Of a DNA stretch of 64,000 nucleotides, positions 27,126-63,761 are shown piece after piece. The notes under the pieces are model-generated. The model was not told where the DNA came from and did not search any database. It saw only the letters and a list, made by a program, of their open reading frames with translations. Position numbers and translations under genes: made by a program. Location of the stretch: positions 248,001-312,000 of the forward strand of contig CAVLGW020000006.1 in NCBI GenBank assembly GCA_963669155.1. Reading direction: 5' to 3'. This stretch comes from Arbacia lixula (taxonomy: Eukaryota > Echinodermata > Echinoidea > Arbacioida > Arbaciidae). Position 1 is the first letter of the stretch. The number at the start of each line of letters is the position of its first letter.

Positions 27126-27183
27126 ATGGGGATTTTCTCATTATGGTGCGTCTCTCTTGTCATCGTCATTGGTGCATTTAAAG
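27126..27183 (+). CDS. Gene B exon 1 (signal peptide)
   Basis: ATG at 27126 begins MGIFSLWCVSLVIVIGAFKG, a hydrophobic leader. The exon ends AAAG|GTAAAA in phase 1, the same layout and length (58 nt) as gene C exon 1. Confidence 0.85.
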
Positions 27184-30100
27184 GTAAAACATTCCTGCAG
27201 ATTTATATTTTGCAGCCACATTATTTACATTATATTAACTTTCAAATAATCTTTCTTTTGATTTACACTTTGTCCTGGGAAATTTCTTGTTCTCGTAATT
27301 CTATATAATGAATCTCCGGGAAATAAAAGCCAAGTTGTTGTGCATGATAACAATTATCAACGCAGTTTTTGTAGTGGAAGATGCAACTCTTCTTGAATAT
27401 GTGCAGCGTTATTTCTTATTTGTTTATTTTTTTGCTTTCAGACTTATTACGAGGCAATTTTGACAACATTTACGATTGATATACATTTCTCATCATCATT
27501 TTTATTGACTTGTAACAAATACTGCATAGCAAATATTTACATGCTATAACAAGGAGCAACTAATCAACCCCCTTTTATATTTGTAATTATATTCGTTTGC
27601 AGGTAGCTTTAGTTGCTCCGGTGTGTGTACAGATGATAATGTTACTGCGGCGGTCAATACAACTTCGATTCTGTTTTGCAATTTCTCTTTGGAGGCTGAA
27701 TCACAGTTCTCAATCACATGGAAGCATTATAACAAAGAAATCATTAGGCGTGGAGTTCGCGATAGTGATACCACTAATGGTCGTTACAGCATCAAAGTAA
27801 CACGCCCGCTCAATTCCAGCAGATTGATTATACACAATGTGGAACCTAACGATACTGGACGCTATGACTGTTTTGTTTCAATGATTAGGGGGAAGCCGAA
27901 TCGCAGTTCCGTCAATCTACAAATAACAGGTTAGTTAATTTCGACAACCTTTATTGAGGTATCAGATTTATTTTAAGGTTGCATTGCATCGCATTTGATG
28001 TCATACAAATGATATGTTTTTGTATCATAACCATGACTATGTGCATGATCTGTACAAAAGAAAGATATGCAAACGGAGTTCTATTCTCCTTAACATGGAT
28101 TCAACAAAACGTTCGTAAAGAAATATTTGATAGGATTCTTGAAAAATATGGTAACTTACTAGATTTTATTGTTTATTATTTATCTATCATCACATGTGTT
28201 AACATAAGAGGAAGTTGTCTGTGGTCGAGTGAGCACACTTTAAAGATGAAGCAACAGCTCCTAAAATGTAATGTTTATACGGCATAATTGCATACATGCA
28301 TGTTGATTGAATTATAATTTGTTGAATTAAACGTTGTATGTGTATCATATCCGACTTCCCCAATACTTGTATGGTACTGTAATCACAATATGAAAAGCAC
28401 AATAGGGATATTCAATCGAAAGGTGATTATGCCATAGTTTCTGGTAATTTGAAGGGTAATTGTTGCCTATTTACAATCATGTCACACATTAGATTGACAC
28501 ATTTTAATATAAGTAATAAAAACAACTTTAAAATGTGCTGAGAAAAAGGCTTATTTAGGATATTAAGATTTAATGACCGCCCGACACATCCATATAGTAT
28601 TAGATAGCGTTGAGGGGAGCTCCGGACTATGTTGCAAAAAAAAAATCGTATCGCGCAAGTCAAAGACGAGTGTGATACGGTTTTATCGAGTGCAAGATAG
28701 TCTGTATCCCTCAAAAGAGACATCTAATATCATTGTCATTATCAAGTGCAAACGCTATTGAGCTAAGACCTGAAGACAGTCCAGTCGCATCCGATTGTGG
28801 TTAGGCCGGTCTGAGCCTGAGCTTTGTTTCTTGATGAAGTTAGTCTTCCTGTGGGATGAACTAGACGTTTGATGTAACCAATGCTTATGCAAGGTTGCCT
28901 CTATTCATTCAACTTATTACATATAACCTGTTTAACTTAAGCCCTAAGATAACCTCAAGTTGTTATATTGAACGTTACCGTTTATTTGTTAACTAGCCGG
29001 CAGACTCGGTCTCAGATATCAAACGTCGCCTAGACTTGCCCCTTGCCACAGCTCGTGAAATTCTCACCAACGAAATGAACTCCACTCCTTAACCGTATTT
29101 CCCAGGATAACTGCGACATGTTATTGCAGCCTTTGTCGTTTATTTTCAATGAATTGTACACCTAATTCTTGTGGTACATTCGACGTAGAATGACATGTTC
29201 ACGGGGGCCGCCATCGTTGACGATAACGCATAATTCATACGCACACATCGATAGCGATGCTCGTGTGTATCCAGGATCAGCTGGGTCAGCCAGCCGTGCA
29301 GCAAACTTGCAATGGCCTTGCATGTAGGTTGAATGACCTTTACAACTACTTTTTGATAGGCAAATCTGAATCCGAAAGGGATTTGCCTCAGAAGGTCTGG
29401 TCGTGGTGAATCCATTTTTTAGCCAAGCGAGTGACGTCATTTACACATTGACTGCATAGCGCATTCGTGCGACAAAGTCTGATATCGCACTCGACTTTGA
29501 CACAGGACGGTACGAAAAAAACAAACCCGGAAACACCCCGGTTAATAAGAAATGCTTTTATGTTCTACGAAGTTTCAACAAGTGGCGTATATAACGTCAT
29601 TCATACAATGCGCAAATATAATTGTTGAGCTTAGAACACCAATTCGAATGATATTGTACTTGCAACTACACTTTCGAATTTCCAATGTTAGTGAATGAAC
29701 AGGCAAGGGTGGATGACAGACACACACTTTTATCATGCTGTAATCATTGGAGCGAGCTCGTACAGAAAGCAAAGTGTTGCCGTGTCCAGAATGTATGCAA
29801 TGGTACATTTCATTTGTTAAAAAAACACGTTTAAGTTCATTTTAAAGTGACTTGTTTCATGGAAGACCTTATGTTAAATGTAATGAATATGGTGGTAGAA
29901 TTACCTCTACTAATATAGATTTAAGAACTCGCTTGTGATGGAAAATGTAACATTACTTGTCCCAAAATATCAGACAATGTTTGAATAGGTCATTACAGAC
30001 ATAGGGTTGCACATTTACTCCTTTAACTATACACTAGTTTTCCTCGGAGCACATTTTATTTTCCCTTTATTACTTGGATTAAACCTGTTAATACTAAATG

Positions 30101-33100
30101 GTGTATCTACTTAAGCATATTATGATGGGATTTTTGTATTTTACATAAGAGCACACATTCAGGAGAAATAGGCAACATTCACCTTTATTTGATCTGAAAT
30201 GGTAAAATTACCAATCATTTGAATATCTTGCCATCAATATCATGTTACTGAGCCATGCAATATCGATAACACCAAATAAGGTTTGAGAAAAGTAATAACT
30301 GATTTGATGATACGCAAACAATGCTAAAATCAACAAATTGTTGGTAAATAAACATTTGCATGTATGTGATATAAATATGACATTTCACGATTTGTTGCTT
30401 CACCTTCAAGGTGTGCTCTCTCTGCCATTACACGATCACTTCCTCTTACATGTTGTTAACAATACTTGATGTCAATTTATTTGATACAGTGAACGGATGT
30501 CACGATATTAGTAGGGTTTATAGTAGCACCTTTCATAGAATAATCGGAATTGGTATAAAAGAGTCAAACAATGGATGATCAGGCAATCAACACACCTAAA
30601 CATACACAAGAAACAAAATTAAGCCAAATCTTACATCACATACTCCCAAAACTGCTCTTATGATTTTTGAAAAGTGACAATCTTGCCTTGAATGTGTTCA
30701 AAGTAATTTGGATTTAAGACTAATCAATAAGAAGTTACGCTGCTTCATTTGGCTAATGGGGGAAATTTCTTTTCTTAATATCATGGCTATCAAAATAACG
30801 GTCATCTTTTCAATTTCTTCGCCTGTTCATCTGCCCATTTGATCATGTTCAATATGTCAATAATCGGCATCGGTGCTATCATTCCCATTCGTCTCTTCTC
30901 ATTCCCAAAAATCTGTAAACACCAATAAAGTATATATATTTAATGTCTGAAATTGATATACGAAGTATGTTCGTCCCGTCTTTTCAGTTCCACCAAAGAG
31001 GATTGTCATTTCGGACGCCAGCACCTATAAGGACTATCAAAACAATGACATTCTTGAACTCTGGGAGGGGAAGTCTGCGAGTCTTAAATGTAAAACAGAC
31101 GGTTTCACCAATATTGCTGTTGAGCTGATGTGGCAGACCAATGTTTCAAAGTCATACTCTACACCAACTAGCATCGTGAATGAGCCAGTTGTTACCAGCT
31201 TGATATATCTCAATTTTACCCCGTCTTTTCGAGATGACGAGAAAGCCGTCACATGCGGAATGTTTCGAACTACACGTATCAATGACTCAATCAATGTGAT
31301 TAAGTCGAGATTGTTTCTCAAGGTACAAGGTGAGTTAAACATTTTTTCCCGTTGCAAACTTATTTTGTTATACGGTATTAAAGGGCTTTTTCTGACAAAT
31401 TGCTTGATTCCTGGTATGACTATTTGTGGTGACATAATCTATTTTTAAAGCAAGACGAATCTGGTTTGAATCGATATATTACGCTTTATCAGAAAGTTTG
31501 TGTCTCAGATGGATATTTGATCATCGTTTTTTTTAATAAATCTCCATTCAAATCACAACATTATGTGTAGTGTACTACTTAATAGGTGAATCTTTATAAC
31601 GTAGTCGCCAAAATCACACGGCTTCATTCAGTATAATATTCTTTCTTTCCTAAAATTGCCAATCATTTACTGACCAAACAAGGACACATTGCATTTAATA
31701 TGCCATTGAGTTACAAAGATAAATGCGCGAAGACTAAACAATGCCTCCCAGTCGTAACATAGCGGTTGTATTTGCTAAAGACTACTGAGAGAAGGGCCAT
31801 TAATGTTTGACAATTATTCTTTGAACGTCCTCTCATGTGTATCTTATTTTAATTAGCGTAATACATGTTTGAAGACCTGGAACACAATGAGTCAGCAAAT
31901 TGGCAGCAAGCTTTACATGTGTCTTTCTCCAATCCTTCACCCGCGTATTGCTTTCTGTCACCGTCTTCCTTTAAAAAAAATATACTGAATGTTTTTTTTT
32001 TGCCTCATTATGTACAACTTCTGTCTTATATTAACACAGTGTTCATTATCACATCGTGGTCGACCACGGTCGAAAACATTGTTGGCGATGGTCCTCCACT
32101 GATTCCTGTCAACCATTATTTTTCCCAGTTCATCAAGGTTAAGTCGTGTATCTCTGGTGATCAGGTGTATGTAGTTAGTAGCCGGTCTTCCACGGCCCCG
32201 TTTTCCTTGTGTTTTTTTGTGGTTTGTTGTGTTTTGAGACTGGTTCATGAGCACTTCTGTAGCATTGCCCGGCAAATTTGAGTCGTCTCTTCTAAAGTAT
32301 TTGATAGATTCTTGGTGTGTCTCCATAGATTTCTTGAAGTGTTGGGTGGTCTTTCCAACTAATATTTAATACTGTCCTAAGCATGCGTGTATAGCATCCG
32401 TCAAGACCTTGCTCCAGATATTGGGATAGAGTCCAAAACTCAGCATTATACAGAAGAATGCTTTCTACTGTTGCCTTAAAATGATTGATCTTCATTTGGC
32501 ATGGTAGGTTAGACTTCCATATGAGATTCATTTTATTACATGTTATTAGATGTTATTTATTAGATGTTGCTTATTAGATGTTGCTATCCAGGAACCTAAA
32601 TACTGGAAATCCTCCACTCTCTTCAAGTCTTGTTCATCTCGGGACTTCAGGCTGCAGTCTTCATTTGTCAAATTATACTGCATGTACTTGGTATTGCTTG
32701 AGCTCACATGTAGCCCAACAGAGCTAGCCGTATCCTCAACTCTGCGTATGAGTTCCTGAGCTTTTTCAAGTGTGTCTGATATCAAGGCAATGTCATCTTC
32801 AAAGTCCAAGTCAGTTAAAACTTCCGCAGGATATCATTGACTACGGCGTTAGTACAACAAAAACAAAACCACTGACAAATTGTTAATACAATCAAACAAA
32901 CATTCAACGATTTAGACTCATCGATGTTTTTCCTCCTTTTCTTAATGATTTTTTTTTAATAAAGAAAGAGTAAAATAAAGAAAGGGTTAGAAAGACTTTG
33001 TTTCTTTACATGTCTGGCGCCATGAAAAATATTTCATCTCGGCATGCCACTATAACTTCATATTAAAGTTGGAAGTGTCATCATTATTGTGAAATGTCTT

Positions 33101-36100
33101 TATATTTATGTTGGTTCTTTCCTTCTTGACTTATTCAAGCGTTTGACATAGTAAGACTTGTGAAGTGGTGAAATACCATAACCAGGGAAGTTGGGAAGGG
33201 GGCTTAAATTACACTGTGAATGAAAGGATTAGTTGTATGTAAAGATGGACATTCTAATCACGGTTTCTGTAAGAACATAAGTTCCTTGTTCACTTCTGTC
33301 ATTTGCAAGCCTGTATGGGTGCAATCGCCTGAGCACGAGATGTATGCGAATGTGCAAGTGCGTGTGTGTGTGTGTGTGTGTGTGTTTGCGGGGGTCTGTA
33401 AACCAACGTGTTATTTTTTATGGATTAAGGTGTAGGTAAGTTTTGCTATCTACGTGAACTGCTAATCCAAGTATGGAAAGGTGTCTACGCTACTGACGTT
33501 AACGGTTATAGCACGATGTAATATTATTGTACAACATTCAATTTGAAGTAGAAATCTGGAATCATTTCAAATTGCATTTGTGTTCATTAAAGCCGGCTTG
33601 GACAAGCCTCCAAAACAAACACTGACACAAACATATCAATAAGTACAATAATATGATATTTATATTTTATTTAACTGTAACAACTATTGGAATATTTCGT
33701 TTACAGTCCCACCTCGAGGTCTTGTTATCAAGAACAACCAAACAAATGCAACATCTGCAGATAAGCTCATGAACGTCGTAGAAGGAATTCGCACATATTT
33801 GACATGCATGACACAGAATCCCGTACGACCAGCTGTAAATCTGTTTTGGAATGTGGACGTTATATCATCTGTCCAAGTGAGCACGACTACAGAGAGTCTG
33901 ATGGAAGCTGATTCAAGACTTGTTACAAACTTCATCAGGCTCAGTTTTATTCCAAATCTACGGCACACTGGCGGGGATATAACATGCACAACTAACAAGA
34001 GCACAATTCATGATACGCCATTATCGAAAAGTGTGCGAATCTACGTACAAGGTATGTGCCTTGTGTTTTTCCTTTACTAATGAACGTCTGAAATCGTATC
34101 CATAACAACAAAGAGATGCGTAATTAACTCTACTTGTCAATGTAAATAATAAACTAGAAGTTCAGAAGGATGCAACATCGCTTTTTATAATACTATGGTG
34201 GTTGTCAATGAAGGATATCAACTAAAATTTACGTAATGCAGGAGAGGAAAATACCCATAACAGTAAGGTTATATTATTTTGTATGTAATACTTATTAGTA
34301 ATTTTTTATTTGCTTGGCATTAAAATAATGCTAAAATACTGAATATTTAATTTACGCATAAGCAACATCGATGCTATGGACGTCGAAGACAACATAAATC
34401 AATGCAGTCTGCGTTTGACAACAAACACTGTATTAAATATTTCATTTTTTATACATATCAAATGTAACACTTTTCAGCCGCAAGTAAGGACAATGCACAC
34501 AACTTCCACCTCACCGTTGCTGGGACTGGGGCTAGCTTGGGTGCTGTTATCATCATTGTTTCTATCATCAAGGCCCTTCTGGCGTCAAAAGTTCCAGGTT
34601 GTACATCCAAATATTTCTCTACATCAGCTTCTGGAGATATATATATACACACATATATATATATATATGACATCGGTATCCAGTATGTTAGTTCATGTAC
34701 TACCATGTTTGTCTAATATATCGCAACTCTGGAGCTATTCATTTTGGAGGTGACTTCTAACCTAATCGTATTCTTTCAGTGGGAAATTTCAAGCAAAATT
34801 CAGAATGGAAGGTTGACCGAATCACCACATAAACATAAACATTAATTACAATTCCAAAGTGAATGACGTTAAAGTATGCATTACTTCTCAAATATAACAT
34901 GATCAAACCCAGGAAACCCTTGTTAAATTGTGTTTCATGTTGTACACAGTTCAACTCATAGAAAATAACGCCCAAGTGCCAGCAGCTACGCCAGCAGTAC
35001 TTCGTAGATCTTTGCCACCAACCCCCAGGCAGCTGCCAACCGTACCAGTTTCACCGCGTTCCTTTCACTCCGTCCCTACATCTCCTGCAAAGTTGCACGA
35101 CCATCCAGCCGAATTTCACTCTCTGCAAACTCCTCCAGCTGCATTTTGGCACGCCAACAGGAGTAAGGAGAATCTGTGTGAGGGGGGTCTGAGTAGCATT
35201 CCTGGAGCGGTAGGCGGAGAGTTACCCAGGAATCATGAACATGATGAGGCAAGTTATCTGTAAAAGTTTGAATCATGCAACATTTCCAAAAAGATTTTGT
35301 TATCGAACGGGTGTTACAAACAACAGTATGTTAACAATATAATTTATCAACGAAACTGACGTCATATGTTTTAATTTGTTGTCATATATTTATGCCATCA
35401 TTTAAAAGAAGTATTTTATTGAACTGTAGGGCAATAATTGACTACAAACATGTGAGGGTGTTAACGTTTAATCCTTCATCTTGAAAGGTGCCGGATGATT
35501 CTTCAGAGGACTACGCTGAGCTCAATGACCAGATTTGTCCAGGTACCGTACCTGCCATGCGCCCGATCCCGTTGTCACCACGAGAGGTAAACATTTTCAT
35601 GATTGACCCGTTCATTACTAAGTCCGCATTTCTGTGGTTTGGGCTTTCTCCACTCAAATACTGAGTAAGCGCGACTCCCATTGTATAGGATGTACGAACG
35701 ATATATTACGGAATATGAATTCATTACAGGATGCAATGAAGCCAGACAATGCTGTTTATTGCAGTTTAATGGAAAATTTCACCAAAATATATATCTAGGC
35801 CTCTCCTGCTTTACTCTCACAAAAGAAAGCAAGCCACATTTGAAACTTATCAACAACAAAAAAACGGGGAAGCACTTGTTATTTTGAAGGTTCGTTATTC
35901 CGAACGTTAAGCGAAAAATGCTCGGATTAACGAACCCTTTTTCGTTTTCGGACTAACGAGCATCAAAGTATAGGCAATTTACGTGTTTTGGAATTGCGAA
36001 CCTTCGGAATAACGAACCTTCGGAATAAACGAACCTTCGGAATATCGAACTGTAATAAAAAAGACAGGGTGTCCCATTGGCTAAAAAAGAAGAAAAGGAA

Positions 36101-39100
36101 TCAGCAGTATCATTTATAGATAACGTGTATCATATCACACTGTCACAGCTTCACGAACATTTCAAGGAAAAGTGAAAAGCTATCCTTGTTTACGTTTGAA
36201 ACGCAACGACCCTAGTCTACATTCTAAATCGTATTGTCCCTCTGCCCTCGCCCCCCCCCCCCCCCCCGAAAAACGCAGTATCTACATTTTGCACAAGTTG
36301 GGATATTGAGCATTTAGCCGCTCGAAAGTATTGTATTTCATATTATCCCTTTATTGTCAAATTATAGTCTATAGGTCTAGGTCTAGGTCTGACTTAATCT
36401 TACACCTTTTATTTCTAGACAATAGAAATAGTTAAAGTGAGGTCTAATTCTACACCGAGAGCTTGAACCTGTGTATCGACTGGAGTCATCATGTCCGGTC
36501 ATACACAGAGTGAAACCCTCGGTCTAGATTTATGATAGACCTAATTGAATGTTAGATGGCTAGATCGATACTACATTTTCCTTGGGGGAAACTTCATCAT
36601 GTAGATGTTGCGTTGTTGTTGTTTTTTCGTGGCGAAAATGTAAGTTCAGTGTAAATACTGCGTTTTGCAGTTACTGAAAAGTAGGTTTTCAAACAAAATA
36701 TAAAAGAAAACTGAATATATCATATGAAAGAGGGTTGTTCAATGACTACTTATTATGAAAAAAAGTGAAAATTGAAAAAAATGTCAGATACCGCGTTTTT
36801 CTTTGTGGGAGGAAAGGGGGGGGGGGGCAGCCCTGTTAGCGTGCGATGTGGGTATTGCCTCCGTTGAATACATGCACATGGGGCGGGCAGGTGCAGGCCA
36901 TAGTGCACTGTGGTTTGTGGTCTCTAGGCTCTATGTTTAGGATGACCCGCCTGATATCTATTCAATATTTAGCGATCGCTATAATTTCGTTTTAAGTCGG
37001 TTTTCGGTGCTATTATTGGGATGTAGGTTCCGATACAGTATCTTTTTCTATTTTACGTGTTTTTACAAAAATGTTTGACCCGCAAAAAGGAACCCCTTAG
37101 AAGGGGGGGGGGGGGTTCTTGTTCATGTGGCTGTGGTCTTTTCAAGAGGATATCAGGATCCGTTCATGGCGTTCCTAAAAGAGAAATTGAACTTGGTTAG
37201 TGCCTATTCAAAGAACGTAACTCAACCGTATCAAGAGATCCCGAAATGTCTTTCAAGATGATTTTCTATTCCATTGATAGAACCAGGAAGCCTTATAAGC
37301 CAATATCAACCATGAATAGTTTATATTTCACTATGTACAATAAAACTTTTTAGATCTTTGTAGATTTGCGTTAATGAACGATTGTTTATGTAACTTCAAC
37401 AGTCAAAGCAATGCATTTGAAATCAAACTGATCCTTTCATATTTAATGGTCTCATTTTAAGGGCACTGATCGACATGAACAGTACGCCGCAGTCAAGAAA
37501 TCGAAGAAGGGACCAACGATTCCCCACCTGCTAATTCCGACGGCATCAGGAGTGGTAAATACAATATTCACTATACTTGTGCTTGCTTTTACCGAATGAT
37601 AACTTTAACATTTGCGATGTGTTGGAAAAAAAGTCATGTTTACCGTAATAATAAGCAGAAAAGCATTTCTATACATTGATATTAATCACTTTCTTGCTTT
37701 AACCAATGATTTCAAATGAAACATCTTTACTCAGACAATGTACGCCTTGGCGACTCGTAAAGACAATCAGCGGAGGAACTCAAGCGAACAGGTAACATTA
37801 CCTTTCTGTTATATATAAAGGTAATATATATTTTATATAAATATATTTTATATTTTATATATTAACATTATATCTTTTGCAGACATGCGCTTTCAGTCTG
37901 TAAACTTGTCTTGATATCTTCAGGATGTAGAAACTTGACAAGTACAAGTGACAAGTGTCATATTAACCTCAAGGTACATATCGATTGTTACTACCGTCGT
38001 CGCAAATATTAATTCCCAAATTTATCTCAAAAAGGGGACATCTGTATGAAATAAAATAGAAAAAAAGACAAATCAATCCATATAAGTGCGTCTAACTATA
38101 TGTAAATGTATAGATTGATGATATATATTTAGTCACCTCACATCACTAGACCTCGGAGAACTAATTCGTTTTGTTGTTGTTTTAACCTTAAGCAATGGTT
38201 ACACAAATATCTAACAATAATTATGTAGGCAATTATTTGCCCCTCATGCACAGACTTATTTCTTTACAAGTTAGTGCTACATTTCTTATCATTTTCAATG
38301 AATACTTTCATGACATAAATAATGCAGCTAGTCATTTCATTAGATATAAGCACATGTTTCGGAATCTGGTACAAAAGGTAGTTGGAGGAAGTGTGGAAAA
38401 TAGCATTGAGTTGTGACGTGTCGTGGTGCATTGGTTGTGAACTGTGGTTGTGAACTGTGACTGAAGATCTCAAGGTCTCAGTATCAATTCGTCACATGGC
38501 ACTTGTTTCATTCAGCAATATACGTTATCCACATTGCTGCTTTATACCCATGAGTATAAATAGGAATCTTGGTAGTAGGCGGATGGTTGTGTGAATGATC
38601 TTGACCAAGTGCCGATATCGTGCCGCGAGCAAGGAGTAGTCCCTAGGGGATTGTGCACACAAGTATGCATGCTATTTTATTATATCCACTGGCCAGGGCT
38701 GTAATTGTAACATCCAACTTAATTCACTCTCCGGACAGCGATGGGAAATCACTCTACACCATATACACTGTTGCTTTACGGTTGGATATCAATTTACTTA
38801 AATTGATTTTTTTTCTTAGTTCCCATTTAAACGATTAAGTAGCCTCTTTTGACCAGGTGTATCGATTAAATAATAAATTAAATAATACACTAGTATTGCT
38901 AAAGCAAAAGCCAGTCATGCACAATATACCACCACTTGGCCTTTTGTTTGGCGCTATGAAAGGCAATGCATTTTCTTTGCTCTACTTTTCTAGCGGAAAG
39001 TCTACGTGTGTTAAAACCTCGTTTTCTGTGTTGGATCAATTATTTTCCGTCAAATTTGACACAGAGTCTCTTCACACTATGTCAAGCCCAATGCCACTTG

Positions 39101-40573
39101 TAATGCGTCAGAGGGTGCTTTGCACTTCAAAAAATCGACCCAAGCAAGTCGAGATTGCGGCTGCCCTTGAGATAGCTCAGAGTTCTGTCTCCAGAATCAT
39201 CAAACGATATCGAGAAGAGGGTAATGTGACGCCAGAAAAATCTCCATGACGACCCCGAAGGACATCTAGACGGGATGATCGTCAACTGATTAACATGACT
39301 GTGCAATGAACGAAAAATGCCAGAGACCCGTGTCTGTCGTTTGTGGAGAATGCACCATTGAGTGAACGTTCCACGACAAACAGGAGATTGCGTCAGCGGG
39401 GATACAGAGCTAGACGAATTACCAAGGGTCCAAGTCTCACAGTCAGAGTTGCTCGACGACAGTGGGCTAGGAGGCACATGGTATGGCAGATTGGGCACTG
39501 GCGACATGTCATCTTTACAAATGAAACCCGTTACATCCTTGACCGTCAGGATGGCAGACAGAGGTTTCGGCGATTACGTGGCGAGAGGATCAGAGATGCC
39601 TGTGTCAGTAAAACCACTCAAGGAGGTGGGGGCTCAGTGATGGCATGGGCCTGAATACACTATGGCGGGAAAACGCCATTGACACGTGAACGCTGTCGTA
39701 TACCGTGACATCCTGGTGACCCAGTGTCTTCTATCTGCAAGAAGGGTATGGAAATAACTTCCAACTTCAAGACGACAGCGCAAGACCACATAGGGCGCTC
39801 CTGGTGAGAGAATTTCTTGACGCCGAGGACGTGCCGCAGATGCCAAGGCCTGCTTCTTCCCCTCATATGAACCCGATCGTACACACCTGGGATGCCTTTA
39901 CTATCATCAATGGGACGAACATTATCCTTTAAAAAGTTCAGCAATTAGCCCAGGCACTGGCCGAAGAGTGTGATGCGCTGCCTGAGGAGGGCATCAACAA
40001 CCCTTTGGAAAGTGTGGCCAGGCGTGTGGACGTATTGATTCGTGTGAGAGTGGGGCATACTCGATATTAAGCGACTCAATTACATTATAAAGAATAGTGT
40101 TTCATGTTGATAAGAAAATCAACATAATTTAGATTCCTGTTAAATTAATAAAGGTTTAACATTTCTCGAAAAATGCATATTTCAAGGATTTTATCGTCTG
40201 AATGTCATTTCTGGTTTAGACCAGAAATATGTTGGTGAAAAGTTTACCAGTAAAAACTTCAAAACACATCAGCTCTATCTTACAAGAATGATTAATTATG
40301 TTGTCAACAGTTTTCAAAAACTTGTAGAAAAAAATATCCAACCTTGATGAGCAACAGTGTATATATATATATATATATATAAGCAAATAAGAGTACTTAC
40401 GTAACATTCAATATTACGCTTTTCATAACAGAATCGAAGGCGTTCCTGGTTTTGTTAATCGTTTAGTACCGCATAATCCCTGGAAGTATAACACGCTTAT
40501 CGTATGCGACTTTTATCTCTTTTCACAATGACAGGTATTGCAAGACTCTGATCTGGATTACGCCTCCATTTGA
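27126..40573 (+). CDS. Gene B: three-Ig type I membrane receptor with ITIM-like tail (10 exons)
   Basis: Exons: 27126-27183, 27603-27929, 30988-31329, 33707-34051, 34478-34597, 34950-35248, 35488-35586, 37462-37554, 37735-37791, 40535-40573. The total is 1779 nt, 592 residues, open throughout. The order is signal peptide (1-19), V-type Ig, two C2/I-type Ig domains, a membrane span (GTGASLGAVIIIVSIIKALL), a proline-rich stretch with several PxxP motifs, then four tyrosine motifs on separate phase-0 exons: DYAELN, QYAAVK, MYALAT and, at the very C terminus, LDYASI. The last fits the ITIM consensus [ILVS]xYxx[ILV]. By analogy with leukocyte receptors and Hydractinia Alr proteins, such tails recruit SH2 phosphatases; here that is inference. 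One intron uses a GC donor. Introns are invaded by a LINE relic, a SINE-like block and a Tc1-type element. Confidence 0.85.
27603..27929 (+). CDS. Gene B exon 2 (V-type Ig domain)
   Basis: 327 nt, phase 1-1, between TTCGTTTGCAG and GTTAGT. Core motifs are ILFCNFS, FSITWKHYNKEII and LIIHNVEPNDTGRYDCFVS. The length equals that of gene C exon 2, and the segment after the Trp (KEIIRRG versus KEVIRCG) shows paralogy. Confidence 0.9.
28640..29510. mobile_element. Possible element with weak inverted ends in gene B intron 2
   Basis: GTCAAAGACGAGTGTGATA near 28,659 and the reverse complement of ATCGCACTCGACTTTGAC near 29,485 are nearly identical, roughly 830 bp apart and inverted. The enclosed DNA is somewhat more GC-rich than its flanks. 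No transposase ORF and no target duplication were identified. Confidence 0.3.
29520..30987. other. Gene B intron 2, right part: nothing recognised
   Basis: AT-rich DNA without a domain-bearing ORF on either strand. GTCAAACAATGGATG(A/G)TCA with following AAACATACAC near 30,565-30,607 also occurs near 13,561-13,603 in gene A intron 6, indicating one more dispersed repeat of about 100 bp. Confidence 0.4.
30988..31329 (+). CDS. Gene B exon 3 (C2/I-type Ig domain)
   Basis: 342 nt, phase 1-1, after CGTCCCGTCTTTTCAG. It starts VPPKRIVISD and has LKCKTDGFTNIAVELMWQTN and AVTCGMF, the family signature C-x-T-D-x9-E-L-x-W shared with genes C and D. The antisense 132-codon ORF is a shadow. Confidence 0.88.
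31955..32830 (-). pseudogene. Second LINE reverse transcriptase relic (minus strand)
   Basis: On the minus strand, broken frames read LDFEDDIALISDTLEKAQEL (RT catalytic box with F-E-D-D), FQYLGSWIAT, then VESILLYNAEFWTLS and MLRTVLNISWKDHPT, the usual C-terminal hallmarks of LINE pol proteins. Stops and frameshifts separate three open pieces. Its sequence differs from the LINE at 24,960-26,765, so two families are present. It lies antisense in gene B intron 3. Confidence 0.72.
33357..33386. repeat. (GT)n microsatellite
   Basis: A nearly perfect GT run of about 14 units in gene B intron 3. Confidence 0.85.
33707..34051 (+). CDS. Gene B exon 4 (C2/I-type Ig domain)
   Basis: 345 nt, phase 1-1, between ATTTCGTTTACAG and GTATGT. 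It begins VPPRGLVIKN, with YLTCMTQNPVRPAVNLFWNV and DITCTTNKS. It is of similar size to exon 3 and likely arose with it by exon duplication. Confidence 0.88.
34478..34597 (+). CDS. Gene B exon 5 (membrane span)
   Basis: 120 nt, phase 1-1, between AACACTTTTCAG and GTTGTA. A short stalk (AASKDNAHNFHLT) is followed by VAGTGASLGAVIIIVSIIKA and LLASKVPG. The Lys inside or at the end of the span is unusual and could pair with an acidic partner or mark the inner edge. Confidence 0.82.
34950..35248 (+). CDS. Gene B exon 6 (proline-rich cytoplasmic segment)
   Basis: 299 nt, phase 1 to 0, after TGTTGTACACAG. It holds RRSLPPTPRQLPTVPVSPRS and further TSP/TPP repeats, candidate SH3-binding PxxP sites. 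It ends GATGAG|GCAAGT, a near-ideal GC-type donor. If not spliced there, the frame adds ASYL and stops at 35261-35263. Confidence 0.8.
35488..35586 (+). CDS. Gene B exon 7 (DYAEL tyrosine motif)
   Basis: 99 nt, phase 0-0, between CCTTCATCTTGAAAG and GTAAAC. It encodes VPDDSSEDYAELNDQICPGT and a Pro-rich end. YAEL fits YxxL but has Glu at -2, so it is ITAM-half or ITIM-like rather than a classical ITIM. Confidence 0.72.
35885..36055 (+). repeat. Palindromic repeat family R1 copy
   Basis: It contains GGTTCGTTATTCCGAA, the ATGCTCGGATTAACGAACCC block, CTTTTTCGTTTTCGGACTAA, then three AACGAACCTTCGGAATA units and the end ATCGAACTGTAA. It lies in gene B intron 7. Confidence 0.8.
36250..37130. repeat. 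Poly-C and poly-G tracts in gene B intron 7
   Basis: C run at about 36,251-36,267, G runs at about 36,825-36,837 and 37,105-37,117. Otherwise AT-rich, with no exon seen. GGTCTAGGTCTAGGTCT near 36,375 is a small tandem hexamer-type repeat. Confidence 0.6.
37462..37554 (+). CDS. Gene B exon 8 (QYAAV tyrosine motif)
   Basis: 93 nt, phase 0-0, between GGTCTCATTTTAAG and GTAAAT. It encodes HEQYAAVKKSKKGPTIPHLL, with YAAV fitting Yxx[VIL]. The lysines after it resemble the basic flank of several leukocyte tail motifs. Confidence 0.72.
37735..37791 (+). CDS. Gene B exon 9 (TMYAL tyrosine motif)
   Basis: 57 nt, phase 0-0, between ACATCTTTACTCAG and GTAACA. It encodes TMYALATRKDNQRRNSSEQ. Tyr is followed by Ala-Leu-Ala, so it is not a strict ITIM. 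The frame and boundaries fit exactly. Confidence 0.65.
38405..38800 (+). mobile_element. tRNA-derived SINE-like sequence
   Basis: GTGGTGCATTGGTTGTGAAC resembles a polymerase III A box, and GATCTCAAGGTCTCAGTATC AATTC about 50 bp on resembles a decayed B box (GGTTCGANTCC type). The following text (ATACGTTATCCACATTGCTG) is typical of tails of marine-invertebrate SINEs as I recall them. No tail or target duplication was resolved. It lies in gene B intron 9. Confidence 0.42.
39079..40070 (+). pseudogene. Inactivated Tc1-type DNA transposase
   Basis: Reading across frames gives an N-terminal helix-turn-helix region (KQVEIAAALEIAQSSVSRII), a middle with RRQWARRHMVWQIGHWRHVI, then FTNETRYIL where the first catalytic Asp of FTDE is Asn, and HMNPIVHTWDAF where the second Asp of the usual PDLNPIEH block is lost. 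At least three in-frame stops and a frameshift are present. Clearly dead. It lies in gene B intron 9, just upstream of the ITIM exon. Confidence 0.85.
40359..40381. repeat. (AT)n microsatellite
   Basis: About 11 TA units at the 3' side of gene B intron 9. A similar shorter run lies at 34,652-34,668. Confidence 0.8.
40535..40573 (+). CDS. Gene B exon 10 (terminal, consensus ITIM)
   Basis: The acceptor CTTTTCACAATGACAG is followed by 12 codons, VLQDSDLDYASI, and TGA. LDYASI fits the ITIM consensus exactly, and the Ile is the last residue of the protein. The exon is tiny, but it matches phase 0 and is followed by AATAAA at 40655-40660. Confidence 0.7.
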   Translation, partial: VLQDSDLDYASI

Positions 40574-42847: not shown

Positions 42848-42905
42848 ATGGACTTACGTGACAATGTACATATATTGTCTCTGCTTTTGCTCCTCGTAGC
42901 TCAAG
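42848..42905 (+). CDS. Gene C exon 1 (signal peptide)
   Basis: ATG at 42848 begins MDLRDNVHILSLLLLLVAQG. 58 nt ending in phase 1 with a GTATGT donor. This ATG is chosen because it gives a full leader and joins the Ig exon in frame. Confidence 0.88.
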
Positions 42906-47500: not shown

Positions 47501-49730
47501 TTGAAGAAATTGAGAATTGAAAGAAAAACGTGTCAGAATATTTTCCTATGAATAAATAAATTTCAAACTGACTTCGACAGGAATTATACTGATTGCTACA
47601 GCAAATATTTTTTGGTCGGGTCGTCATAAACTTCTTGAGCAAATCACGGCTCTTCCATCGAAGGTGGTACATTACGGTAAGGAACGTACTTATAGTGTGT
47701 TTTACCGAGCAGTGCTTTGTGAAATGTAGACCCTTGTCGCTATGTTTGAAATGTACACAAAAATGTTTTCGGGGGGGGGGGGACTTCTGACCATTTCCAA
47801 ATGTTTTTAATAGTGTGAAAGGGCTACCCTGCTTTTGTTAAGATGCACTTAGCCCAATATGAGTTATGAAAAAAATATGCATATATCGATTGTTAAACAT
47901 TGATCATGGCTTCCTTGTTTAGTTTTTACCTTAGGTGAAGCAGGTGTCTTTAGCACATGGCAGCAAACTTTGATTATCGGACTGGCAGTGTCACACTCTG
48001 TCGTCTTGGCTCTATGTGTTATCATCCTCATCTGGAAGAAATCATGTGGTAAGATGTTTACCTAATTATATATTTTCAGCTAGAACAATAACCCATTTTC
48101 TGTCGTAACAACACACGTTTTGTACATATATTTGGATTCTGTACATTTTTTTTTTTCAAATATAAACTCTTTTGGAGACTGTTCTGTTTATTTAGCGCAT
48201 GTTTTCGTGTGGACAAGAAATTGGAAGTACACGTATACCTATATTCTATTAAATTTTGCAATCATCTGTCATTGTTGTATAGCATATACAATGAAAGTTA
48301 TAAGATAAACTGGAAATCAATGATGAGGGTGTTGATGGGCGGATTTTAGGGTTGGTCACTAATATTTAACTAATATAACGAGTATCTTAACTGCAAGACT
48401 AAACAAGGCTGATACCATATATTGCCGGACGTCATACAAGGTGTTGCCAACAATCATTAATTTCTTCCTCTTTAGCGTTTTTCCTGAAGAAATTGAAAAA
48501 CTTGATGGAAAGGTCACCTGGATAGAATCTGAATAAATCATGTGTATCATGTCTATAACAGAAAAATATTAAAATGCCACACTGCTATAAAGGTAATAAG
48601 ACGAAGTAAGCAGAGATTATTTAAAAAAAAAATGATTTTCATTGCAATGAGCGACATTGTCACGATGTAGTACTGCTTCGTGTTTTTTTTTTCATAATTT
48701 GCATTTTAATGGTAGCTCAACATAATCGGGGACGAGGACAGCTGTCAATTATTCCAGGTGCGCCACCCGCCACAAATGTCGACAGACGAGAGAATGCTCA
48801 ACCATTTCGGGATAGCGTACGTCTTTTTTAACCCAATACTATACCAAGTTGTAGTTAAAGTTCATGTATTTTAACGCTTCTCTTTAAAACAACATTGAAA
48901 TACATCCATCAAAAGATTCATGACATAGAAATATTGACACATTTAAAAAAAAAAAACACATACAAAATTAAAGAAGTGTGGAAGAGTAGACAGGAATGCA
49001 ATGCCTTATTTCCAGCCCACTCCTCACAACATGTTAGATATAATGCAAAGTAGAAGGACATTTACATTTTACACTTTAGGACCGTTCGGCCGCAATCATG
49101 GATCCCAATAGTACTTACATTTTTGAAACAGGGACATTTAGAACACAATGCGAGTGCACGATTTTTGTATAGATTTAATCGAATTATTTTTTTTATATCA
49201 CTTGCTAGTTCAATTAGGTTTTTGAAATGTGTTTTTTTTAGATGTAAACCATAATTATTCCTCTAACAGGACATTTCTCATTATTCATATCCAAAATCAA
49301 TACAGTTAAATGCCTTCACTTAACCTAAAATATTATTTACAACTATCATAAGATTCGTGTTACCGTCTTTATGTTGTCGAAACAGAATTACGACGACGTG
49401 CGAAATGATTCTCCGGGTATGTTCAGCCATCAACATCATGTCTTTGACCCTCGTTTGTCGACATCAAGTGACGCGACTACTTCCTCACTCTCTGAGGGGT
49501 CAAACTCTGCTACCCATCATCATTATGAGAACGAGCGAATTGTTTCTGGTAGTGATGAATACATGACAATGGGAGCGATAGGGTCATCAGAATCTCAGAC
49601 GATCAGTCGTTCTCACGAAGACGTGACTTCTACCAACTTAAGTCGTGCTTTGAACTTAAAACATTATGTCTCCGATCCTGAACTCCTGGAAGATAGTGAC
49701 GGGTATATGGTTCCGTCATGCACTATGTGA
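42848..49730 (+). CDS. Gene C: three-Ig type I membrane receptor with PI3K/Grb2-type tyrosine motifs (7 exons)
   Basis: Exons: 42848-42905, 43566-43892, 45903-46250, 46754-47125, 47935-48048, 48716-48816, 49386-49730. All introns are GT-AG; 1665 nt, 554 residues. The order is signal peptide (1-19), V-type Ig, two C2/I-type Ig domains, membrane span (LIIGLAVSHSVVLALCVIIL) with IWKKS stop-transfer, a short basic-polar linker, and a 114-residue tail exon. Tail tyrosines are NYDDV, HYENE (YxN, Grb2-SH2 type), DEYMTM (YxxM, PI3K p85 type), HYVSD and DGYMVPS. The same set and order occurs in gene D, but in gene B the tail is ITIM-like. An activating or co-stimulatory type of signalling is inferred from the motifs only. 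The second Ig domain lacks the core Trp. Confidence 0.88.
43566..43892 (+). CDS. Gene C exon 2 (V-type Ig domain)
   Basis: 327 nt, phase 1-1, after TGTCCAATTTATAG. Core motifs are VTLPCNISMK, YSVTWSRAGKEVI and LTIHSVESKHAGNYSCFVS. An extra pair of cysteines (RCGIHC) lies between strands, absent from gene B's equivalent. Confidence 0.9.
44558..44592. repeat. (CT)n microsatellite
   Basis: About 16 CT units in gene C intron 2. Confidence 0.85.
45903..46250 (+). CDS. Gene C exon 3 (divergent C2/I-type Ig domain)
   Basis: 348 nt, phase 1-1, after ATCTTATTGTAG and before GTATGT. It keeps VLVCEADIPVN and DVVCEVLKG cysteines, but where the paralogous domains have E-L-x-W it reads TILRLCALF, with Cys in place of the core Trp. 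Further cysteines (VICTF, ISCIS) could form additional bridges. Confidence 0.85.
46754..47125 (+). CDS. Gene C exon 4 (C2/I-type Ig domain plus stalk)
   Basis: 372 nt, phase 1-1, after TATTTTGGGTACAG. It starts VPLEGLIFRD and holds NLSCETDAPVNPPVELLWET and IVSCVANQH. Sequons NLS, NNS, NRS and NAT are present. The donor GTAAGT lies after AAGCA; reading three bases further into it would add codons but break the frame with the next exon. Confidence 0.88.
47935..48048 (+). CDS. Gene C exon 5 (membrane span)
   Basis: 114 nt, phase 1-1, after GTTTTTACCTTAG and before GTAAGA. A stalk EAGVFSTWQQ is followed by TLIIGLAVSHSVVLALCVII and LIWKKSCG. Confidence 0.87.
48716..48816 (+). CDS. Gene C exon 6 (juxtamembrane linker)
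   Basis: 101 nt, phase 1 to 0, after TTTTAATGGTAG and before GTACGT. It encodes AQHNRGRGQLSIIPGAPPAT and NVDRRENAQPFRDS. Gene D has the corresponding 89-nt exon with the same phase change and a similar Pro/Ala run. Confidence 0.78.
49386..49730 (+). CDS. Gene C exon 7 (terminal tyrosine-motif tail)
   Basis: 345 nt including TGA, after TATGTTGTCGAAACAG. It holds NYDDV, HHHYENERI, SDEYMTMGAI, KHYVSDPEL and DSDGYMVPS in a Ser/Thr-rich context. The stop is followed two bases later by AG|GTAAAT, a strong donor-like site. AATAAA at 50251-50256 is a distant candidate poly(A) signal. Confidence 0.88.
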   Translation, partial: NYDDVRNDSPGMFSHQHHVFDPRLSTSSDATTSSLSEGSNSATHHHYENERIVSGSDEYMTMGAIGSSESQTISRSHEDVTSTNLSRALNLKHYVSDPELLEDSDGYMVPSCTM

Positions 49731-56988: not shown

Positions 56989-57104
56989 TGTATTCTCTCA
57001 CATGTCCTCTCCCCTCCCGAGATCTATAAGTTATTTTGCTTTCTGAGCCATTACCCTGGAGGACTAGATTGCCGGTAAGATGTGTTAGTATTTGTTTGAA
57101 GAGA

Positions 57105-58440: not shown

Positions 58441-58479
58441 CTTCATAATTGCCTTTTCCTTTACACTTCGTAACAAAGT

Positions 58480-60340: not shown

Positions 60341-60353
60341 CTATATTCAGTAA

Positions 60354-60359
60354 TTTATT
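60354..60359 (-). terminator. Candidate poly(A) signal of gene D
   Basis: TTTATT on the plus strand (AATAAA on the coding strand), about 183 nt downstream of the gene D stop codon. Confidence 0.45.
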
Positions 60360-60433
60360 ACCTTGCTTATATTACAATATGTACATATAAAGCGCGATAT
60401 TCTGTAACCGGTATTATACATGTTTAGAATTGG

Positions 60434-60498
60434 GAGGAGGAAGAAGGAAGGGAGGGGTGTGTTGGACGGGGTGGGGGGGGGGGGGCGGGGGGAGGGGA
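60434..60498 (+). repeat. G-rich tract in the presumed gene D 3' UTR
   Basis: GGGAGGAGGAAGAAGGAAGG and then runs of 4, 14, 6 and 4 G. The plus strand (template strand for gene D) has enough G runs for a quadruplex; the mRNA would be C-rich here. Confidence 0.6.
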
Positions 60499-60541
60499 TG
60501 TAACAAAAATCTTTCAATAACTGTTTGTTTGCTGAAACGTT

Positions 60542-60886
60542 TTACGATGGTAATAAATATCCATCTACACCCTCGGCTAAAGTAGGATTACAAGAGAAGA
60601 CTGAATCAATGGTTTCTTTGCGAGTTTTAATTTTGGGATCAACTTCACTTTGCTGGGTGGAACTTCCATTAGATTTTGGAACTACTGGGTGCATGGGGAC
60701 ATACTCTTCAGATGAAATCCTATCACGGAATATGAGGTCATTCTCGTATTCATGAGATGTCTCGTCGCTGGATGTTTCAGAATGAGTTGGTGTAGTCCAC
60801 TCGCTGCAAGACGATAGCCGGAGAGATGGGATATTCCGGTCATAGTAAGTGCGTGTTCGGGGATGCTGATCTACATCTGCATATGT
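60542..60886 (-). CDS. Gene D terminal exon (tyrosine-motif tail)
   Basis: 345 nt including TAA, identical in length to gene C exon 7. The acceptor is TACGATTTACTTAAG. Motifs TYADV, TYYDRNI, SHEYENDLI, SSEEYVPMHP and VDGYLLPS are spaced much as in gene C, which is strong evidence of common descent and selection on the tyrosines. Confidence 0.87.
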   Translation of the reverse strand, partial: TYADVDQHPRTRTYYDRNIPSLRLSSCSEWTTPTHSETSSDETSHEYENDLIFRDRISSEEYVPMHPVVPKSNGSSTQQSEVDPKIKTRKETIDSVFSCNPTLAEGVDGYLLPS

Positions 60887-63761
60887 CTTAAGTAAATCGT
60901 AGAAAATAAGAAGAGTATAAATCATTTTTTCATTTATTTATATATCTTACATGTTCGTTCTTTATACAATTACATACAAGTGTTCTGTTTATCTTAGTGT
61001 CATTTTACGAAGATTATATAACGATCAATTTCATAGAAAAACCGGTGCTTCGGAAGACCTAGTTATTTTTTTCCTCTTTCTAAGGACACAATTAAAATAA
61101 ACACAATTTGACTGTTCACGTTGAAGAAACAATCATTTTATTTCCCTAATTTCAAAGTTCATTAGTTGTATCCACTTTAATGAATAAGAGAACTATTAGC
61201 TTCAATTTAAAAGTAATATACACACAAACTCAAATATAGTTATTTGACCTTAAGATAAAATCAACTCGCTTACAAGATCCGGGATCGATGTCACTTGATT
61301 TACTGGTGCAGGCAGTGCAGGCGTGGCAAGTGTATCGGTCCTAGTGTGAAGTGTACGTTGACCTTTATATGAAACAGAAAAGGAATTGCTCCAAGCTGAT
61401 GACATTTATGAAATATTCATTATTTGCTTTCGTCCATTTTGTTGACCGTTGTTCAGATTCTTTTGTGTTTTGTTAAATTCCATGCACGTTGATGTGATCT
61501 TAAGTGAATATATTATGTTTTGCGTCCCTTCATTAAAATCAATTGAATTGAATGAAGTAATTTGACCGTTCTTGATATTATATCGTACTATGACGTTGCT
61601 AGCGCAATGTAGAAAGGGATAATGTTTGCTTAGTATTGTAACCTTGACCATATTAGCAGTTTTTATTCAATACAGTAAATCTTTTGCCTAAATTGTTGGA
61701 TGTGTTCTTAAGGGCCAATGGAAATGCATGATATGTTACATAATTGGAAGGTAACAGAAACTGATATTATGATAATGCATTGTAAATAAGAGCAAAACAG
61801 ACGTTCCTTACTTTGATTTTTCTTCCATACAATCGTTCCGCAACAGACAAAAAACACCAGCAGGTTCGGTACCAATATGCCAATGATCATGAGGACCTGA
61901 TTGTCAAAAAATGCAGCCTCTAGAAAAAAAAAACAACAAACATCATCTTAGCAATACTATACACAACCGTGGTTAAGTCAGTTGCATGAAGTTTGACGTC
62001 AAAATCATCTGACAATATTTACAAACCTGTTGCAATACATGTATATGATTCGTGTCGCCTTGATACCTCGAAAGTATTTCTCTACAATTTGATTATCCAT
62101 CATGTGTAAGGTAACGGTGTTTATCATCAAATGTTTGTAAAGTCTAGGACATTAAGGTTTGGAACTTTGTGTCGGTGTTGTGTTCATTGTTCACTATGAT
62201 TACTATAGTTACCACAGCTGCTGTTGAAATGATTAATCATATTGTAGTCAATTTAAACTTTACTAATAACAAATGTATGTTCACTTAATTAACATTTGCT
62301 GGTTCATTGTTTAAAATTTGCTCGTTATTATGATTTATTTTTAATAATTCTTCATGACGTTTATACATACCTTGAATATCAAAATACACTACCGTTGAGA
62401 TGGTAGAGTCCTCAAAATTGTTCAGTGCTGTTTGGCATGAAATGGATTTCCCATTAAATTCTGATGTCGGGCGAATGGTTAATGAAATGTAATTGACTTC
62501 AAGTTTTGGGTTTGTTGCTTCCCTCCTCTTAGTTAGCATATCGTCTAAATCTCTAACATCAAAGACGGTAGTATGCCACTCGAGCTCTACACCGGGTTTT
62601 ACAGGTGGATCCGTCTCGCAGATAAGCGTCTTTTCAATCCCATACTGCACTGCGAGGATGTCGCCATCACGATAGATGGCCTGAGTAACTGGATCCCGGA
62701 GAACTAAATGTCTGGCTGGCACTGAAAAAAGAATGGTGCGTGTCATTTTGAAGTCGAGCTGTTTGAAAAGCAAATCCTGCAATTATTTTAATTGTAATGA
62801 AATTTCAACTCAGAGCAGAAATAGAATTTGTAGATATGTCCCGGGTGATGTAACTCTAACCCTGGGTTGTAGCTCTTTCTGCAGGTAGTACTCATGTAGG
62901 TACAATATTCTGGGAATCCCCAAAACAAGATATTATTCATTACTTCATGCAAAAAAAATCGTTCATGTCGGCTGAGCTCCTTTTTGAAAGACACAAACGA
63001 CATTTTATCCTTTTGTCTCAAAGCTAGTATCTTGTTATAAAGTTAACCGACCTAACTCTGTGTAGACGTTTGATTAATTTGAAATATGAGGTTAAAATGA
63101 AATCGATAGTAAAAAGGTTAGCCTGTACCATAAGTTTATTTTAAACGACCCATAAATCAGGCAAATGTCTTCGAAAATTTTGCAATGATTAGACAATTTG
63201 ACTTCATTCTGAACAAATAGAGGCCTCAACAGCGTACAAATAACATAAAGACTGACATCATTAAAACAGTTTACTATTTCAATGGTGTCAGTCGATGAGA
63301 CTCAATAAAAGAAAGGGAAAACTTTCCTTAATTTATCCTACTCCAATGGTCCACATACAGGTCTGACTGAGCAACTGAAAATATCCAAAAACAATATTAT
63401 TCTTCAATACCTTCTACATCAAGTGTGACGTCAGTTGAGATATAACCAGTAATCGTGTCGTTGTAGGCAGTCGCACACTTTATAATTGCCCCGTCATTGA
63501 ACAGCTGCGGTATGAATTCAAGAGATGTGTAGCTTGTAACCGTCGACCCACTTGCATTCTGCCCGAGTGTTTTCTGGCCCTGTGATGTGATACGTGCCTC
63601 CACCAAACCAAGATCCCAGAACAGTCTAATAGCTGGCTTCACTGGGTGATCAGTTTCGCATACAAGAGTCTGTTGAGTACATTCTTCAATTTGCCACTTC
63701 TGTCCTGTGCGTAAGGTCTCGTTTGATGAAGTTGTCCTTAGATTAAGTCGCCTGGGCAAAA
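60542..63761 (-). CDS. Gene D (5' partial): Ig receptor with PI3K/Grb2-type tail, paralogue of gene C
   Basis: Exons in the window (5' to 3'): 63761-63411, 62721-62371, 61919-61812, 61362-61274, 60886-60542. All are GT-AG, phase 1-1 for the first three, then 1-0 and a terminal exon. Two C2/I-type Ig domains of equal length (117 codons each), a membrane span (MIIGILVPNLLVFFVCCGTI), a short linker and a tail of 114 residues. Tail motifs are TYADV, TYYDR, HEYEND (YxN), EEYVPM (YxxM) and DGYLLPS, in the order seen in gene C. The first visible exon needs one base from an upstream exon, so a V-type Ig and signal peptide exon are expected beyond base 64,000. The same receptor role as gene C is inferred. 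Confidence 0.86.
61274..61362 (-). CDS. Gene D linker exon
   Basis: 89 nt, phase 1 to 0, after TTTCTGTTTCATATAAAG and before GTAAGC. It reads QRTLHTRTDTLATPALPAPV and NQVTSIPDL. An alternative acceptor 20 bases further in (CACACTAG) would hit a stop, so the longer form is preferred. Confidence 0.72.
61812..61919 (-). CDS. Gene D membrane-span exon
   Basis: 108 nt, phase 1-1, after TTTTTTTTTTCTAG and before GTAAGG. It encodes AAFFDNQVLMIIGILVPNLL then VFFVCCGTIVWKKNQ, a single span with basic stop-transfer as in gene C (IWKKS). Confidence 0.85.
62371..62721 (-). CDS. Gene D membrane-proximal Ig exon
   Basis: 351 nt, phase 1-1, after CATTCTTTTTTCAG and before GTATGT. It starts VPARHLVLRD and holds KTLICETDPPVKPGVELEWH and SISCQTALN. 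Confidence 0.9.
63411..63761 (-). CDS. Gene D upstream Ig exon
   Basis: 351 nt, phase 1-1, after TTTTGGTTATTGCAG and before GTATTG. It starts VLPRRLNLRT and holds QTLVCETDHPVKPAIRLFWD and IIKCATAYN. Frames upstream of 63,761 that look open belong to the intron and the fold-back repeat. Confidence 0.88.

Follow-up and report, generated by a model that had tools for sequence, protein, structure and literature searches.

A stretch of 64,000 nucleotides from Arbacia lixula (contig CAVLGW020000006.1 of assembly GCA_963669155.1, positions 248,001 to 312,000; hereafter the window, meaning the whole stretch analysed) very probably carries, as judged from its predicted coding sequence, a cluster of four genes for type I receptors of the immunoglobulin (Ig) superfamily, designated A, B, C and D. 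Together with as much of D as is visible, genes A, B and C fit into ~51 kb, in DNA whose GC content ranges from 0.33 to 0.41 in 4 kb steps. Ig domains were found by six-frame reading and Pfam, exons were joined at GT/GC-AG borders, and all models are predictions from genomic DNA alone (Table 1). The splice models place B, C and D, with their common exon plan and phases, where a preliminary description of this DNA had put them, and the cluster it proposed holds as far as the genes could be modelled; the fourth receptor gene, A, had been left unmentioned.

Gene models of the cluster

Gene B is modelled with 10 exons (592 amino acids) and gene C with 7 (554 amino acids), both laid out as V-C2-C2, transmembrane (TM) segment and tail, while D has 5 exons in the window (414 amino acids, 5′ part outside) and A has 7 (386 amino acids, 3′ part incomplete). 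Three V-type exons, those of A, B and C, have Pfam Ig matches, and one hydrophobic TM run per gene is found beyond the signal peptide. B is the only gene of B, C and D with a Lys in the predicted TM segment, those of C and D having no Lys or Arg. In these three genes the junctions from signal peptide to TM segment are in phase 1, the juxtamembrane exon leads from phase 1 to phase 0 and the tail exons are in phase 0. Exon lengths also recur: the V-type exons of B and C are 327 nucleotides each, and C and D both have a tail exon of 345 nucleotides, their predicted tails being 150 and 146 residues long. Genes B, C and D together have 22 modelled exons, all free of internal stops (the exons had been picked for openness), and every scored acceptor, as well as all scored donors except that of the B TM exon, lies above the 75th percentile of the AG and GT sites of the window. 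That D follows the same plan, as was previously stated, holds for the C2-C2-TM-tail part; the gene is incomplete, with 239 bases of the window upstream of its first C2-type exon, and its V-type and signal peptide exons probably lie beyond the window edge.

Gene A (12754-22107, minus strand) encodes a V domain, three sushi domains and one TM segment and stands head-to-head with B, the divergent start codons being 5018 bases apart. The acceptor of its second sushi exon is weak (-0.5), and a search for the tail past the juxtamembrane exon returned only candidates indistinguishable from chance.

Some further features were noted within and around these genes. A candidate alternative terminal exon of B at 35730-35798 (plus strand; NAVYCSLM..., then a stop; acceptor 2.9, fitting phase) would shorten the tail and remove its immunoreceptor tyrosine-based inhibitory motif (ITIM). 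With another candidate, in C at 48476-48525 (plus strand; acceptor 5.1, stop after ~16 codons), the tail would have no tyrosines. Introns of B hold a reverse transcriptase fragment (32546-32833, minus strand; RVT_1 E 7.8e-5, below the Pfam cut-off) and, in the last intron, a Tc-type transposase remnant with stops (39082-39654, plus strand; HTH_28 above the cut-off, HTH_Tnp_Tc3_2 below it). By eye, TTCGTTATTCCGAAGG-type repeats were seen at 13740-14270 and 35880-36060, and what is probably a dispersed repeat, with similar translations (VEYKxNNQLLxSxNETNYH), at 63760-63960 and 2202-2384 (both minus strand). The TTCGTTATTCCGAA repeat may be of an echinoderm or hemichordate kind, judging by its appearance. 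The literature search found no paper on it or on the 14-base core of the TTCGTTATTCCGAAGG-type repeats, and no description of the locus among the matches listed (titles and abstract openings, with few subscription journals covered). Rfam at gathering thresholds gave no match in the window.

Table 1. Predicted exons of the four receptor genes (positions within the window)
Gene	Exon	Positions	Strand	Basis
B	1, signal peptide	27126..27183	+	model, hydrophobicity
B	V-type Ig	27603..27929	+	Pfam ig E 1.8e-8, V-set 9.2e-7; fold nearest nectin-1 D1
B	C2-type Ig a, without PVxP	30988..31329	+	shuffle comparison, C2 profile
B	C2-type Ig b	33707..34051	+	shuffle comparison, C2 profile
B	TM, Lys near inner end, weak donor gttgta	34478..34597	+	model, splice score
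B	juxtamembrane, proline-rich, GC-type donor (gcaagt)	34950..35248	+	model, splice score
B	tail 1, EDYAEL	35488..35586	+	model, motif scan
B	tail 2, EQYAAV	37462..37554	+	model, motif scan
B	tail 3, TMYALA, no consensus motif	37735..37791	+	model, motif scan
B	terminal, LDYASI then stop (ITIM consensus)	40535..40573	+	model, splice score, motif scan
C	1, signal peptide	42848..42905	+	model, hydrophobicity
C	V-type Ig	43566..43892	+	Pfam Ig_3 E 3.8e-8; V-set below cut-off; homologous to B V
C	C2-type Ig a, without Trp	45903..46250	+	shuffle comparison
C	C2-type Ig b	46754..47125	+	shuffle comparison
C	TM, homologous to D TM	47935..48048	+	shuffle comparison, hydrophobicity
C	juxtamembrane, phase 1 to 0, last Ser begins SNYDDV	48716..48816	+	model, motif scan
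C	tail: (S)NYDDV, HYENE, EYMTM, HYVSD, GYMVP	49386..49730	+	model, motif scan
D	C2-type Ig a	63411..63761	-	shuffle comparison
D	C2-type Ig b	62371..62721	-	shuffle comparison
D	TM	61812..61919	-	shuffle comparison, hydrophobicity
D	juxtamembrane, phase 1 to 0, last Leu begins LTYADV	61274..61362	-	model, motif scan
D	tail: (L)TYADV, YYDRN, EYEND, EYVPM, GYLLP	60542..60886	-	model, motif scan
A	1, signal peptide	22062..22107	-	phase 0 to 1, hydrophobic core
A	V-set domain	20960..21280	-	Pfam V-set E 1.4e-10
A	sushi domain 1	17867..18055	-	Pfam Sushi E 4.3e-5
A	sushi domain 2	16641..16832	-	Pfam Sushi E 1.8e-9
A	sushi domain 3	15207..15398	-	Pfam Sushi E 1.3e-8
A	TM	14379..14489	-	Kyte-Doolittle 2.92 over 19 residues, uncharged; sole such run past residue 30
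A	juxtamembrane	12754..12860	-	phase 1 to 0

Relatedness of the domains and tails

The splice models and the comparisons with shuffled sequences establish the gene anatomy, at the level of the models, and the homology of the predicted ectodomains. The V domains of B and C align with a Smith-Waterman (SW) score of 170 (z 31.4), and each of the 15 pairings among the six C2-type exons outscores all of its 300 shuffles, at identities of 22-33% among the V domains (33% for B and C) and 20-30% among the C2 pairs. The V domain of A is weakly related to that of B (z 5.4, a score reached by 1 of 300 shuffles) and not clearly to that of C (z 1.9; 16 of 300). An Ig signature C-E/K-T-D-x-P-V-x-P-x-V-E-L-x-W had been reported as common to B, C and D; it is exact in two of the six C2-type exons, and the relaxed form PVxP...LxW is present in four. 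Individually, none of the six exceeds a Pfam cut-off. A profile built from all six finds no seventh C2 exon in the window (best other match E 0.55), and profiles of the V, C2, sushi and tail sequences find no further members there (other hits no better than E 0.4). Pattern searches for relatives of single C2 domains gave five matches in viral contigs for C and 39 in GTDB contigs for D, with no relative in either set.

On the cytoplasmic side, the predicted tails of C and D are homologous (28% identity; SW 104, z 10.7), and the homology is concentrated around the tyrosines: four of these are aligned, and the residues of their flanking motifs are identical at 8 of 16 positions versus 19 of 91 elsewhere (Fisher P 0.019). 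The TM segments of C and D are likewise homologous (z 7.6). The TM segment of B has no detectable relation to those of C and D (165 and 58 of 300 shuffles as high), no pairing of the three juxtamembrane sequences is convincing (12, 42 and 140 of 300), and the B tail exons have no clear relation to the tails of C and D, whether compared on their own (92 and 18 of 300) or with the juxtamembrane sequence included (203 and 23 of 300). The central observation of the preliminary description, that related Ig ectodomains with differing tyrosine-bearing tails stand side by side, is supported by the models, the shuffle comparisons and the tail comparison.

Structure modelling of the V domain of B gave a predicted local distance difference test (pLDDT) value of 68, the other four models lying below 50. 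The nearest fold in a structure search is nectin-1 D1, and the best 50 matches (E 2.6e-5 to 1.8e-4, root-mean-square deviation 3.9-9.4) include CD96, IgLONs, gamma-delta T-cell receptor, nectin-4, CRTAM, PD-L1, antibodies, CD226 and TIGIT/PVR; for the predicted domain this indicates a V-type Ig fold and no more. A C2 model reached pLDDT 57. Weaker matches of the C2 profile are CD22 (E 0.0014) and, over the constant domain, antibody light chains. The tail profile has no match in the PDB up to E 10.

Tyrosine motifs measured against chance

The motifs YAEL, YAAV and LDYASI, which had already been read in the tail of B, are found in the model, each in a separate exon. The tail contains four tyrosines; three are of the type Yxx[ILV], spaced 25-32 residues apart, and one of these three, LDYASI, is a full ITIM (shuffle P 0.19). 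The exon that carries the ITIM is only 12 residues long and is the weakest part of the B model. In the tails of C (SNYDDV, YEN, YMTM, YVSD and YMVP) and D (LTYADV, YYDRN, YEN, YVPM and YLLP), the YxN (here YEN) and YxxM motifs that set them apart from B in the preliminary description are present, but a site of the ITIM consensus is there too. More specifically, SNYDDV and LTYADV fit the consensus at the first tail tyrosine and span the junction of the juxtamembrane and tail exons, so that they arise only after splicing and are absent from all six unspliced frames. The pattern of the immunoreceptor tyrosine-based activation motif (ITAM) has no match in the tails of C and D, and hemITAM, searched with a pattern of our own, has none in the tails.

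Eleven patterns were tested in three tails, i.e. 33 shuffle tests, uncorrected, and for the tyrosine motifs found P ranged from 0.015 to 0.68. Values below 0.05 were obtained for the three Yxx[ILV] motifs in B (P 0.015), YDDV in C (0.020) and YVPM in D (0.039). Motifs alone therefore prove little, and the conservation of the tyrosine flanks between the predicted tails of C and D is better evidence than motif matches. A second control counted phase-0 exon candidates in the B tail region (5.75 kb) and in seven control strand-regions (56.75 kb), one of which (1-12000, minus strand) may contain the remainder of the A tail. Candidates with [DE]x(0-1)YAx[LIV], a motif chosen after B had been seen, amount to 3 distinct tyrosines in the B region versus 1 in the controls.

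Proposed receptor function and known systems

The explanation that we favour, with a probability of about one half, is a four-gene receptor cluster for recognition with phosphotyrosine docking tails. Ligands of the V-C2-C2 ectodomains of B, C and D would be located on other cells or on microbes, with the outermost V domain as the most likely binding site, and on clustering the tails would be phosphorylated by Src-family kinases. In B, the spaced Yxx[ILV] motifs ending in an ITIM would, judging from motif and spacing, suit SHP- or SHIP-type phosphatases, and the net effect may be inhibitory or threshold-setting. YxN motifs recruit Grb2, YxxM PI3K, YxxP Crk/RasGAP-type SH2 domains and YDxV Nck; the tails of C and D would thus offer mixed docking, with an ITIM-like or Nck-like first site followed by YxN, YxxM and YxxP. 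Given this mixture of Grb2, PI3K and Crk/RasGAP docking, the more probable outcome of C and D signalling is a survival, cytoskeletal or phagocytic response, possibly with an inhibitory site kept. From the predicted proteins we infer a role in immune or self/non-self recognition, along with the expression, ligands, phosphorylation and polarity of B, C and D. Counted in favour of the explanation are the consistent phases, the ectodomain homology, the Pfam Ig matches of the V-type exons, the single TM run per gene, the homology of the C and D tails around the tyrosines, the [DE]x(0-1)YAx[LIV] tyrosines of the B region, the codon score of the B tail (with little frame specificity) and the V fold. 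Further points are the combination of a V domain with sushi domains in gene A next to B (Pfam) and the ITIM-type inhibition by an amphioxus leucine-rich repeat receptor in Jurkat cells, according to the available text of PMC8211107; an oyster Ig receptor with an ITAM has also been described (PMC11999971, available text).

Several results weigh against this explanation. Specifically, (i) 3 of the 33 motif tests fall below 0.05 where 1-2 are expected by chance, and the ITIM matches have shuffle P values of 0.19, 0.19 and 0.27, so that 19-27% of shuffled tails would have such a match; (ii) terminal exon candidates with the ITIM pattern [ILVST]xYxx[LIV] number 4 in the B region and 32 in the controls (4 versus 31 as distinct tyrosines), a similar density, so that the last exon of B is not beyond chance on this measure; (iii) donors are weak or non-standard at the B TM exon (gttgta, -2.8), the B juxtamembrane exon (GC) and the C juxtamembrane exon (-0.9); (iv) in two of the four B tail exons a shifted frame has the higher codon score and shifted frames are mostly positive too, so that the codon score of this tail, above 2000 of 2000 non-coding samples, is mainly one of composition; and (v) contactin, DCC and IgLON domains (PDB) rank high for the V domain, beside those of CEA/CEACAM1, antibodies and T-cell receptors, and the best solved relative of the C2 profile is SYG-2 (E 5.7e-6).

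SYG-2 is a cell-adhesion protein, and nephrin/Neph tails use YDxV, YxN and YxxM sites, which the tail of C has as YDDV, YEN and YMTM. These genes may serve adhesion in the manner of nectins or of nephrin/Neph/SYG proteins, with homo- or heterophilic cell contacts, actin signalling via Nck, Grb2 and PI3K and no immune role, an alternative that we consider somewhat unlikely though to be taken seriously. The best V-fold match is a nectin domain. Against adhesion, the clustering of three diverged copies with an Ig-sushi gene and the repeated Yxx[ILV] tail of B seem, in our judgement, more typical of recognition receptors. The C-termini (YASI, SCTM and LLPS) are, by eye, not of PDZ type, and IRM proteins carry more Ig domains. 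The V-C2-C2 arrangement is, for its part, the nectin plan (PMC7286890, available text).

A system like fester and the fester co-receptor (FcoR), in which A and B would form a co-regulated head-to-head heterodimer and C and D would be further co-receptors of other signalling types, appears improbable. In the available text on Botryllus (PMC12065747), FF proteins have Ig, sushi and three TM segments (fester and uncle fester without a known signalling domain), and their genes adjoin those of FcoR, proteins of 520-610 amino acids with V, sushi, two C2 domains, a TM segment and tails of the ITIM, hemITAM or core Yxx[ILV] kind. The divergent pair of a V-plus-sushi gene and a V-C2-C2 gene agrees with this, as do the ITIM and core matches in the tails. 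However, a sushi exon was sought in the V-C2 introns of B and C and not found, whereas FcoR has one by that description; A has one TM segment found where FF has three, its tail is incomplete, and its V domain is only weakly related to that of B. We give a slightly smaller chance still to a fester/FcoR-like complex outside the tunicate described, in which B, C and D beside the A/B heterodimer would provide alternative ITIM, core and PI3K/Grb2 outputs and splicing at the phase-0 border ahead of the first tail tyrosine would make or remove an ITIM and so switch polarity.

Comparably small is the chance that the genes are decayed or mis-joined, the Ig exons being real and some tail chains artefacts of motif hunting, above all the last exon of B past the transposon remnant. 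Some loose splice scores, control DNA about as dense in ITIM-like terminal exons as the B region and two candidate alternative terminal exons would fit; the open exons of B, C and D (chosen as such), the homologous tail exons of equal length in C and D and the codon score of the B tail argue against it.

Paired receptors of the vertebrate style, with B inhibitory, C and D activating and common ligands, are the least probable of all: clustering, related ectodomains and differing tails agree with them, but ectodomain identity is just 20-33%, the ITIM consensus occurs in B, C and D alike, and C and D are long-tailed, without ITAM or basic TM residue, the Lys sitting in the TM segment of B. According to the available text of PMC3533184, a short tail together with an Arg or Lys in the TM segment marks the activating partner, and extracellular sequences are significantly conserved, with no numerical threshold set; that 20-33% seems low for the predicted ectodomains, which then would lack such conservation, is therefore a judgement. 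Nor do C and D have an ITAM of their own as in CEACAM3. LDYASI would suit B as the inhibitory member, yet C and D match too and single matches are common by chance. The opposite polarity proposed in the preliminary description is thus not supported, as the first tail tyrosines of C and D fit the ITIM consensus as well.

If expressed as modelled, the locus would add an invertebrate case in which Ig receptors with tails of the ITIM and PI3K/Grb2 types are clustered. Such a case would be relevant to the question of whether the recognition systems of cnidarians, tunicates and vertebrates reflect one ancestral receptor logic or convergence on signalling pathways; the making or removal of an ITIM by an exon junction could also be tested simply here.

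Among known systems, SYG-2 and nephrin resemble these genes in the C2 profile and in their YDxV, YxN and YxxM sites, and differ in Ig number, with only two C2 domains and one V domain here. Alr Ig domains of Hydractinia are atypical, whereas those found here are canonical V and C2 domains with Cys and mostly Trp, and no ITAM matched. Alr is otherwise alike in being a set of clustered invertebrate Ig receptors, some with ITIM or ITAM (cited within the available text of PMC12065747). KIR, LILR, PILR and SIRP, as far as the text of PMC3533184 is available, are likewise clustered related Ig receptors with differing tails; here the ectodomains have strongly diverged, a short-tailed partner with a basic TM residue is not seen, and all three tails match the ITIM consensus. 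With the nectins, nectin-like proteins and PVR (PMC7286890, available text), B and C share the V-C2-C2-TM plan, and B the V fold near nectin-1 D1, and PVR has an ITIM; the locus differs in lacking PDZ-type C-termini (as PVR does), in its several tyrosine docking motifs and in the Ig-sushi gene of the cluster. The comparison with invertebrate allorecognition made in the preliminary description is reasonable, although, going by the descriptions available and not by homology, tunicate fester/FcoR fits better than the cnidarian system. The YxN, YxxM and YxxP motifs of C and D are not mentioned in the available fester/FcoR description (PMC12065747). The FcoR size range of that text accommodates both B and C, and the fuhc locus of Botryllus schlosseri likewise adjoins an Ig-plus-sushi gene to one with V, two C2 domains, a TM segment and a long ITIM- or core-motif tail; by these descriptions, the FF/FcoR pairs are the closest match found for the predicted A-B neighbourhood.

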